Shown here: positions 18,091 to 51,537 of the stretch, piece after piece
Layout of the letters: each line of letters opens with the position of its first letter
Position numbering within the stretch: the stretch's first letter is position 1
Assembly (NCBI GenBank): GCA_017553325.1
Contig: JAFZMH010000004.1
Location: 31,138-95,137, forward strand
DNA: 64,000 bases
Source of the DNA: Clostridia bacterium
Lineage (GTDB): Bacteria; Bacillota; Clostridia; Christensenellales; CAG-917
Reading direction: 5' to 3'
Made by a program: the position numbers and the translations under genes
The notes under the pieces: model-generated
Database searches by the model: none
What the model saw: only the letters and a program-made list of their open reading frames with translations
Told to the model about the DNA's origin: nothing

Positions 18091-18105
18091 TTTTTTGTTC
18101 CGTTT

Positions 18106-18178
18106 GAATCCCTCCGCTTCAGTCAAAGAAAAAGCAACCCATTTTTGGGCTGCTTGTTTGGCGGAAGTGGAGGGATTC
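18106..18178. repeat. Inverted tRNA-Ser-tail repeat around a hairpin
   Basis: GAATCCCTCCGCTTC (18106-18120) is the reverse complement, with one mismatch, of the tRNA-Ser tail copy at 18164-18178. Between them lies a terminator-like hairpin AGCAACCC / GGGCTGCT (18133-18154) with a T run on the minus strand. The same nested arrangement occurs behind tRNA-Arg. Confidence 0.6.
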
Positions 18179-18179
18179 G
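18159..18179 (-). repeat. Duplicated 3' end of tRNA-Ser
   Basis: These 21 bases are identical to the last 21 bases (including CCA) of the tRNA-Ser gene at 18319-18339. The rest of a tRNA is absent. Between the copies lie 139 bases with a 9-bp hairpin (18258-18277). Confidence 0.85.
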
Positions 18180-18257
18180 TTCAATAGCGAGGCGTGCGAA
18201 ATAATTCGCAAAGGCACGCGTCAGCCCCGTGAAGGGGGTTCGCTGTGCAGGGCACAG

Positions 18258-18277
18258 ACTTGTCATTTATGACAAGT
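18258..18277. repeat. Perfect hairpin in the tRNA-Ser repeat unit
   Basis: ACTTGTCAT / ATGACAAGT with a 2-base loop, located in the spacer between the tRNA-Ser tail copies. No T run follows. Confidence 0.5.
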
Positions 18278-18299
18278 TGTTCCCTCGCTTCCGTAAAAA

Positions 18300-18319
18300 A
18301 ACAGCCCCTTAGGGCTGTT
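18300..18319 (-). terminator. Terminator of tRNA-Ser
   Basis: On the minus strand AACAGCCC / GGGCTGTT forms an 8-bp stem directly after the tRNA and is followed by seven T. Confidence 0.85.
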
Positions 18320-18407
18320 GGCGGAAGTGGAGGGATTCGAACCCCCGTGGGCTTTCACCCAAACGGTTTTCAAGACCGCCTCGTTGTGACCGCTTCGATA
18401 CACTTCC
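18319..18407 (-). tRNA. tRNA-Ser (anticodon TGA)
   Basis: A class II tRNA: acceptor GGAAGTG / CACTTCC, anticodon loop CTTGAAA (TGA), a long variable arm (TTTGGGTGAAAGCCCACG) and T-arm GGGGG TTCGAAT CCCTC. The CCA is encoded (18321-18319). It converges with tRNA-Thr. Confidence 0.96.
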
Positions 18408-50829: not shown

Positions 50830-51149
50830 TCACAACATTACATCCTATAATAATAAACGACCTCTTGCGAGGTGGTTGGCGTACCATAAGGGATTCGTTT
50901 AATAGCGAGTGAACAAATTTATTCGTATAAACGAGCGTCAGCCCTGACTCGTCAGGGGTGTAATAAGCAGACATCTAATTCTTGGACGGGATTCGCTCCG
51001 CTTGACCTATACTTATCACACGAACGGCACAGAAGAACACTATACTCGCACGATTGCGAAAGGTCTGCGCTATCACGCCGGGGCGAGCAAATAATTCACA
51101 GAATTGTTTGCTTTACGCCCGTTCGAATCCCTTAAATGGAAACAAAAAA

Positions 51150-51171
51150 ACACGAGCCGAAAGGTTCGTGT
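51150..51171 (-). terminator. Terminator in repeat unit 1 behind tRNA-Arg
   Basis: ACACGAGCC / GGTTCGTGT stem with a 4-base loop and seven T on the minus strand; almost identical to the one directly behind the tRNA. Confidence 0.75.
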
Positions 51172-51383
51172 TGTTTTGTTGGCGTACCATAAGGGATTCG
51201 TCTTACAGCGATTGCTACAAAGTCAATCGCGTGCAGCCTGACCATGGGCAGGGCGCGTGATATGCAGACTCCTTACTCAAGGACGGGATTCGCTCCGCTT
51301 CGCTATCACGCCGGGGCGGGCAAACAATTCACCGGATTGTTTGCTTTTCCGCCCGTTCGAATCCCTTAAATGGGAACAAAAAA

Positions 51384-51405
51384 ACACGAGCCGAAAGGTT
51401 CGTGT
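51384..51405 (-). terminator. Terminator of tRNA-Arg
   Basis: ACACGAGCC / GGTTCGTGT stem, 4-base loop, seven T on the minus strand, 9 bases past the tRNA. Confidence 0.85.
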
Positions 51406-51413
51406 TGTTTTGT

Positions 51414-51490
51414 TGGCGTACCATAAGGGATTCGAACCCCTGACCTTCTGGTCCGTAGCCAGACGCTCTATCCAGCTGGGCTAATGGTAC
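51414..51490 (-). tRNA. tRNA-Arg (anticodon ACG)
   Basis: Acceptor GTACCAT / ATGGTAC, anticodon stem TCTGG / CCAGA around CTACGGA (ACG, expected to be read as ICG), T-arm AGGGG TTCGAAT CCCTT. The CCA is encoded (51416-51414). Confidence 0.96.
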
Positions 51491-51508: not shown

Positions 51509-51537
51509 ATTATAATTGCCTAAACGGCTTTTGTCAA
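51509..51537 (-). promoter_or_regulatory. Promoter of tRNA-Arg
   Basis: Consensus on the minus strand: TTGACA (51537-51532), 17-base spacer, TATAAT (51514-51509). Confidence 0.9.

Follow-up and report, generated by a model that had tools for sequence, protein, structure and literature searches.

Palindromic units ending in the tRNA 3′ end stand behind many tRNA genes of a clostridial family and may be mobile cassettes

Behind the tRNA-Arg(ACG) gene of a Clostridia bacterium, in the 64,000-nt stretch of DNA analysed here (the window), two tandem units were found on the minus strand: unit 1 of 234 bp (51180-51413) and unit 2 of 303 bp (50877-51179). Each runs from a terminator through an antisense copy of the T-arm and a core to an exact 21-nt tRNA end with CCA. 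The same order of tRNA, terminator, arms, core and tail copy, with the copies starting at C56, recurs behind other tRNA genes of this genome and its relatives. Many of the units are an inverted repeat of the 3′ third of the tRNA, from about nt 46, in which both T-loops are interrupted. Our favoured but tentative explanation is that the units are palindromic cassettes, mostly 130-300 bp long, derived from the 3′ end of the host tRNA, and that site-specific recombination likely places them, as a folded single strand, between T55 and C56 of the tRNA gene. Three other readings, given below with the evidence that bears on them, retain substantial weight.

The features of the Arg array are listed in Table 1. 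An initial annotation of the window had described three repeats in it, all of which were recovered: the last 21 nt of tRNA-Arg, CGAATCCCTTATGGTACGCCA, occur again exactly at the end of both units, the terminator of unit 1 recurs at the head of unit 2, and each unit holds a 14-nt copy antisense to the T-arm (GTTCGAATCCCTTA on the plus strand). A block of 89 nt comprising the antisense arm, the terminator and the start of the tail is 98% identical in the two units. The same annotation took the duplication to be recent, for which we found no support. The units differ in length and in their cores, which agree in 51 of the 63 aligned columns of the first stretch, unit 2 having some 70 extra bases, and the third tail is followed by another hairpin. 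Because of these differences in the cores and behind the last tail, the array cannot be put down simply to recent copying of a single unit; homogenisation is limited to the outer block. The hairpin behind the last tail is possibly the gene's own terminator from before any unit. On the tRNA strand both unit stretches fold far better than shuffled sequences (z −5.3 and −5.5). No ORF longer than 75 aa runs across the Arg units, and at the gathering threshold Rfam finds only tRNAs in the window. A group II intron, a riboswitch or another Rfam RNA was rejected as an identity, all ten sub-threshold matches lying far under the gathering scores.

Table 1. Coordinates of the features of the two arrays in the window
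Feature	Position	Strand	Remark
Promoter-like site of tRNA-Arg, TTGACA-17-TATAAT	51509..51537	-	consensus match 12/12
tRNA-Arg(ACG) gene; nt C56-A76 = 51414-51434	51414..51490	-	ARAGORN and Rfam RF00005
Intrinsic terminator, head of unit 1	51377..51406	-	exact repeat of 51143-51172; T-run on - strand
Unit 1 antisense arm R'', 14 nt antisense to T-arm	51355..51368	-	inverted repeat
Unit 1 type-C core GGGCGG..GGCGTGATAGCG..AAGCGGAG	51285..51354	-	54/62 identity with core behind tRNA-Asn of G010
Unit 1 decayed internal tail start CGAATCCC, within core	51285-51292	-	
Unit 1 L' arm GGTCAGG, copy of tRNA bases 51439-51445	51237..51243	-	7-nt exact match immediately 5' of X
Unit 1 insert X, type B, CTGCACGC-hairpin-GCTGTAAGA	51201..51236	-	motif recurs behind tRNA-Ala, G000 C4:13540
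Unit 1 sense tail copy R', exact C56-A76	51180..51200	-	
Terminator, head of unit 2	51143..51172	-	repeat of 51377-51406
Unit 2 antisense arm R''	51121..51134	-	
Unit 2 type-C core and extra ~70-nt stretch; end GCGGAG/CGAATCCC at 50988-51001	50988..51120	-	
Unit 2 L' arm GAGTCAGGG; tRNA has GGTCAGGGG	50942..50950	-	read in sequence
Unit 2 insert X, type A, CTGACGC-hairpin-GCTATTAAA	50898..50941	-	
Unit 2 sense tail copy R', exact C56-A76	50877..50897	-	
Different terminator-like hairpin behind last tail	50849..50873	-	
tRNA-Ser(TGA), host of second array	18319..18407	-	
Ser unit terminator	18295-18317	-	
Ser unit antisense arm R'' CGGAAGCGAGGGA, after terminator	18281..18293	-	
Ser unit spacer Y, two hairpins set in antisense T-loop	18243..18280	-	
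Ser unit L'' CGAACCCCC 18234-18242, loop, L' CACGGGG 18225-18231	18225..18242	-	
Ser unit insert X, type A	18180..18224	-	
Ser unit sense tail copy, exact 21 nt	18159..18179	-	
Further terminator-like hairpin behind Ser tail copy	18129-18153	-	
Further antisense arm behind Ser tail copy	18102-18115	-	

The window contains a second array, absent from the initial annotation, behind tRNA-Ser(TGA). It spans 18102-18318 and consists of one full unit and further elements beyond its tail.

BLAST of unit 1 against its own genome gave matches behind other tRNA genes. The survey covered 249 tRNA genes of 27 genomes, namely the own genome, 20 other members of its family and six genomes from other families of the order, which contributed one tRNA gene each. 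A Christensenella sp. MAG was the closest relative with a name among those found, which makes Christensenellales the probable order. The genes were picked by tRNA similarity or tRNA score, irrespective of units. Ungapped matches of each gene's own tail with a score of at least 13 were counted within 800 nt, with tRNA genes masked and at least 120 nt of downstream sequence required. A copy of the own tail was found downstream of 52 of the 249 genes, so the arrangement is not private to the window. The same test gave 7 hits in 996 trials with foreign tails (masked, score 13) and a single hit upstream of the 249 genes; in the own genome (G000) the copies lay downstream of 9 of 38 tRNA genes and upstream of none. 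No own-tail copy was found behind the single tRNA genes surveyed from the six other-family genomes. The hosts are tRNAs for 11 amino acids (Ala, Arg, Asn, Ile, Leu, Lys, Pro, Ser, Thr, Tyr and Val). Outside the own family, units were read behind tRNA-Thr of G291 and G215, and tRNA-Trp of G317 is followed by an arrangement that resembles a unit. In relatives, several draft contigs stop within tRNA-Arg or shortly past it (L088 1-60; the ends of L067, L072 and L075), which may be expected if such arrays break assemblies.

The distance from C56 of the tRNA to the first copied C56 was 128-729 nt with a median of 192.5 nt and lay between 130 and 300 nt in 44 of the 52 cases; the longest distances can hold more than one unit. 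Unit bodies measured 97-366 nt in 48 of the 49 listed, the list leaving out three of over 420 nt, and many exceeded 142 nt. The match started exactly at C56 in 39 of the 52 copies and two bases earlier in one more. Among the 44 copies that begin with the tRNA's own base, the base preceding C56 was A in 30, G in 12 and T in 2, and the tRNA itself has T55.

The layout in many units, read from the terminator, is an antisense tail, two hairpins (Y), the antisense 5′ strand of the T-stem, a small loop, a sense copy of about nt 46-52, the hairpin insert X and C56-A76. Since the antisense arms and the sense copy of about nt 46-52 are present, such units amount to an inverted repeat that starts at about nt 46 of the tRNA. 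In many units the arms thus copy both halves of the T-arm, C56-76 in an outer stem (R) and about nt 46-52 in an inner stem (L), with X and Y at the places of the T-loops. The antisense tail arm near the terminator scored at least 8 against the own tail in 31 of 52 units, 2.3 being expected from foreign tRNAs. The antisense 5′ strand of the T-stem was also detected (Wilcoxon p = 9e-4), extending at least 3 nt beyond GAAC in 19 of 52 units and not at all in 20. The left arm L', directly before X, was tested in the 38 of 52 units that have an X anchor. At least 5 nt were identical to the own tRNA in 22 of these 38 (0.5 expected), and the mean of 4.79 compares with a maximum of 2.26 in 10,000 permutations. 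The 5-nt arm was missing in the other 16, among them several Arg units of genus g8.

Part of this layout could arise without a dedicated enzyme, if replication switched template at the terminator palindromes and made fold-back copies of the tRNA end, which recombination between tails would then multiply. A tail followed by a terminator and an antisense tail is the product expected of snap-back copying at a hairpin, and the tails and terminators are homogenised in the window array. Such copying leaves the constant C56 junction unexplained, however, as it does the X inserts and type-C cores that are common to different tRNAs and species, and we consider it decidedly unlikely as the source of the units. 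At Ser-TGA, Leu-TAG and Ala-GGC, as read in the sequence, the terminator of the unit differs from the outer one, which speaks for insertion and not for slippage.

Folding was compared between 45 of the 52 units and the first 60 qualifying control regions behind tRNA genes without units. The mean z of the units was −3.5 on either strand, and that of the controls −1.3 and −1.2 (p = 4e-7 and 7e-8). The inner hairpin of X was examined in 14 aligned sequences out of 26, with four base pairs selected by the analyst. All four pairs showed changes on both sides, 96% of the cells pair, and the covariation was 0.72 against 0.29 in shuffled alignments (reached in 0 of 500 shuffles). Two of the five covariation measures, the changed-pair count and the extra pair types, did not surpass the shuffles (130/500 and 461/500). 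Compensatory changes support the inner hairpin of X. The strand opposite to the tRNA folded better in 36 of 42 type A/B units (p = 2e-6) and in 23 of 26 X sequences (p = 6e-5); with DNA parameters the counts were 33 of 42 and 25 of 26. A lean towards the tRNA strand was seen in type C units (5 of 7, p = 0.11). In the tRNA terminators, G-U pairs made up 30 of 638 pairs on the sense strand against 11 of 601 on the opposite one, and the energies showed no strand difference (24 versus 24 of 52).

These folds bear on the possibility that the units are a functional RNA, a folded transcript which imitates the 3′ end of the tRNA and titrates the factors of tRNA processing or regulates them. The fold stability and the compensatory changes would suit such an RNA, and the annotation of E. 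coli rtT, discussed below, is that of an RNA obtained by processing of the tyrT transcript. Against it, an intrinsic terminator stands ahead of each unit core in the window, and in type A/B units the strand opposite to the tRNA gives the better fold; terminators, which are real sense RNA, are richer in G-U on the sense strand, though equal in energy. The presence of units also varies among species and among E. coli strains. We consider a functional RNA, too, decidedly unlikely. The initial annotation had offered three ideas for the tail copies, competition for tRNA-processing enzymes, small RNAs and footprints of recombination, and the last of these is the best supported.

Cores and inserts are shared between different tRNAs. 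The type-C core of the window Arg unit is identical in 54 of 62 positions to the core behind tRNA-Asn of G010, which in turn matches a core behind tRNA-Leu of another genus in 56 of 64. Type-C cores are thus common to Arg, Asn and Leu units, and the arms match each respective host tRNA. Gene conversion between standing units could be an alternative source of the shared cores. The X behind tRNA-Lys(ctt) of G002 and the X before an Ala-like tail in G018 agree in 61 of 64 positions, one difference being a compensatory pair; a copy of X in G015 resembles the G018 version.

When X was searched for by itself in eight genomes of the genus, 31 distinct copies were found at 31 loci (36 places). A tRNA gene on the same strand lay upstream within 1200 nt in 16 of them, and 13 of these 16 precede the tail of that tRNA. 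Several of the remaining 15 are at a contig end, and most precede a tRNA-tail-like sequence, as judged by eye. A loose pattern for X matched 40 of 297 sampled genomes of the order, including 20 of 22 of the own family. Since the reversed form of the pattern, used as a control, also gave about 35 matches overall, some of the matches beyond the own family are chance. A stricter pattern matched none of 391 genomes in a sample of the class; this absence beyond the order says little, because the pattern also misses G000 and G022 of the own family. Carriage by phages or plasmids was rejected, with no match in either. In viral contigs the X patterns gave 0 matches, together with 13 judged by eye to be chance, with no tRNA tail behind X, and the type-C motif gave 16 raw pattern matches.

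X was also seen inside dispersed palindromic repeats (of the ..GAATGACA type) in G221 (L258-L263) and G252 (L264-L265), with no tRNA gene in the stretches fetched; some of these copies share a ..CTTA/CG end. In G025 (L269 1548-4802), two units at tRNA-Arg(CCT) flank a 3-kb stretch with a protein similar to the candidate defence family PDC-S64, and the distal copy has about 20 nt of tRNA before X. In G032, G036 and, by eye, G035 (L251, L252, L255 and L267), a gene of the serine recombinase type runs right up to a unit whose tail is of the Leu type. The ends of these genes read like a tRNA tail (..GCACCA). The protein of L255 has resolvase, recombinase and zinc-ribbon domains, and the others were assigned by eye or from the serine recombinase search.

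X might accordingly be a very small insertion element, some 60 nt long, with a preference for TT/C at palindromes, the units being displaced 3′ halves of tRNAs from tRNA-integrating islands whose useless T-loops took up X. The dispersed repeats of G221 and G252, some with the ..CTTA/CG end, would fit such an element, as would the tRNA sequence retained before X in the distal copy that bounds the 3-kb stretch of G025 and in the Thr unit of G027, which has a left arm of 12 nt and no clear antisense tail arm. The serine recombinase-type genes that end immediately before units point in the same direction. An insertion element does not account, however, for the antisense arms, for the second insert Y or for small tandem units so alike in layout behind tRNAs of 11 kinds. 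The search of the own genome also gave no serine recombinase. We judge this reading unlikely.

In the own genome, 97% complete, a single tyrosine recombinase (PF00589) was found, an Xer-like protein of 361 aa encoded outside the window contig, whose best model is XerS, under the cut-off of that model. No integron integrase was found in it; the Xer-like protein scores 59.8 bits against the TIGR02249 cut-off of 265. The Xer-like gene (G000 C2:136658-137233, L087) adjoins, by eye, a gene like that of a sigma factor. G025, where units are present, likewise has one tyrosine recombinase. Three other candidates were rejected. Retargeting by a reverse transcriptase found no PF00078 in six genomes including the own; a Y1 transposase of the REP kind was found in 4 of 8 genomes and in none of G000, G025, G026 and G252; and a serine recombinase as general mover is missing from G000, PF00239 being present in 7 of 8 genomes.

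If the units are cassettes, the folded strand would present the two half-sites of the T-arm in its R and L stems, as the R and L boxes of an attC hairpin do. A tyrosine recombinase, of which the Xer-like protein is the only one found in the own genome, or another enzyme would join the folded unit to the T-arm. Insertion would rebuild the tRNA end, the former one staying behind. Arrays could grow and shrink through the same reaction or through ordinary recombination between tails, and no benefit to the host need be assumed. Several observations count against cassettes: no integron integrase and no R-box consensus were found, some units are without one arm, the lean of type C units is towards the tRNA strand, X occurs in the dispersed repeats of G221 and G252, and the one presence/absence pair comes from E. 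coli.

That pair belongs to rtT, to which the initial annotation had likened the units. To our knowledge, rtT has so far been a curiosity confined to a single locus of E. coli; it has reportedly been proposed as an RNA that regulates or titrates tRNA-processing factors. In both organisms tandem units stand behind a tRNA gene and each closes with its 3′ end and CCA. The E. coli tyrT and tyrV units also share an antisense tail arm (GGGGAAGGRT), and they contain GAACCTTCGA, antisense to nt 47-56 with one mismatch behind tyrV, and AAGGTTCGA, the sense copy of nt 49-58, whose third letter group is altered in one tyrV unit. Their closing stem is the same too, the fold having the tail in an outer R stem and the T-stem copy in an inner L hairpin. 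The E. coli tail copy has 19 nt (from about A58) and the present one 21 nt; E. coli units are by eye without a terminator between tail and arms, and their X sequence differs. Here 11 kinds of tRNA are hosts, and the E. coli comparison covers tyrT and tyrV only. The likeness lies in the build and does not extend to the family model. Since the Rfam RtT covariance model (RF00391) has no match in the window and four in the E. coli control, the window units are rtT-like and not rtT. E. coli rtT folds slightly better on the sense strand.

In the strains read (L349-L356) there were 0-3 rtT copies behind tyrT and 0-4 behind tyrV, for example 1+3 in MG1655, 3+4 in EA13, 0+1 in KOr024 and 0+3 in EC45. 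Strain Eco-15 has no rtT units, and its downstream gene is also different. The head of the tyrT unit was found in 1920 of 5426 genomes. In KOr024 the tail is followed by TCTCAAGTATTACC, and in MG1655 the order is tail, unit, tail and TCTCAAGCATTACC, so that a whole unit is present in one strain and cleanly absent from the other. Loss through homologous recombination between tails would give an identical picture.

No description of such units in this group was found in the literature, as far as titles and the openings of abstracts go and with subscription journals mostly outside the search. Repeats of the REP and MITE type are short, folded and dispersed palindromes. The units are likewise short and folded, and X occurs in the dispersed repeats of G221; they differ in having arms specific to the adjoining tRNA, and no Y1 transposase was found in the four genomes named above. 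Genomic islands at tRNA genes are marked at their ends, in the available part of the Islander definition, by a regenerated tRNA 3′ end and a displaced fragment (PMC4383910). The units show both marks, but they are palindromic, tandem and mostly 130-300 bp long, and those in the window carry no integrase gene.

The closest comparison is with the attC sites of integrons. The R boxes of attC have the consensus RYYYAAC / GTTRRRY. As far as the available part of PMC2727003 describes them, attC sites are 57-142 nt long and have the order R''-spacer-L''-loop-L'-spacer-R', a junction where R' begins, a weakly conserved sequence and a preference for the bottom strand. Set against that partial description, many but not all units have the R''-L''-L'-R' layout (22 of 38 anchored units with L', 31 of 52 with R''). 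The units share the place of the junction and the weak conservation, and the preferred folding of the strand opposite to the tRNA in 36 of 42 type A/B units resembles the bottom-strand preference. The R boxes of the units, in contrast, copy the tRNA T-arm, the tails reading C[GA]A.. without GTTRRRY or RYYYAAC boxes; no IntI was found, the payload is a terminator and not a gene, and the spacers hold hairpins. Because the R consensus and the integrase are missing, we do not call the units an integron; they are built like attC cassettes and may work like them.

The rtT type of build now stands behind many tRNA genes of a phylum distant from E. coli, and its arms match the respective tRNA to either side of a single position in the T-loop. 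It is possible, though less likely than not, that these units form a class of mobile mini-cassettes for which the T-arm of any tRNA gene is an attachment site, each palindrome carrying both T-arm halves with arms re-matched to every host. The class would be integron-like with the tRNA as its platform, and E. coli rtT would be one member. The arrays may also explain why several draft contigs of the relatives end at these tRNA genes. Folded-strand recombination, if true, would add a natural example of the attC principle, on a platform that is among the most conserved short sequences of tRNA genes.
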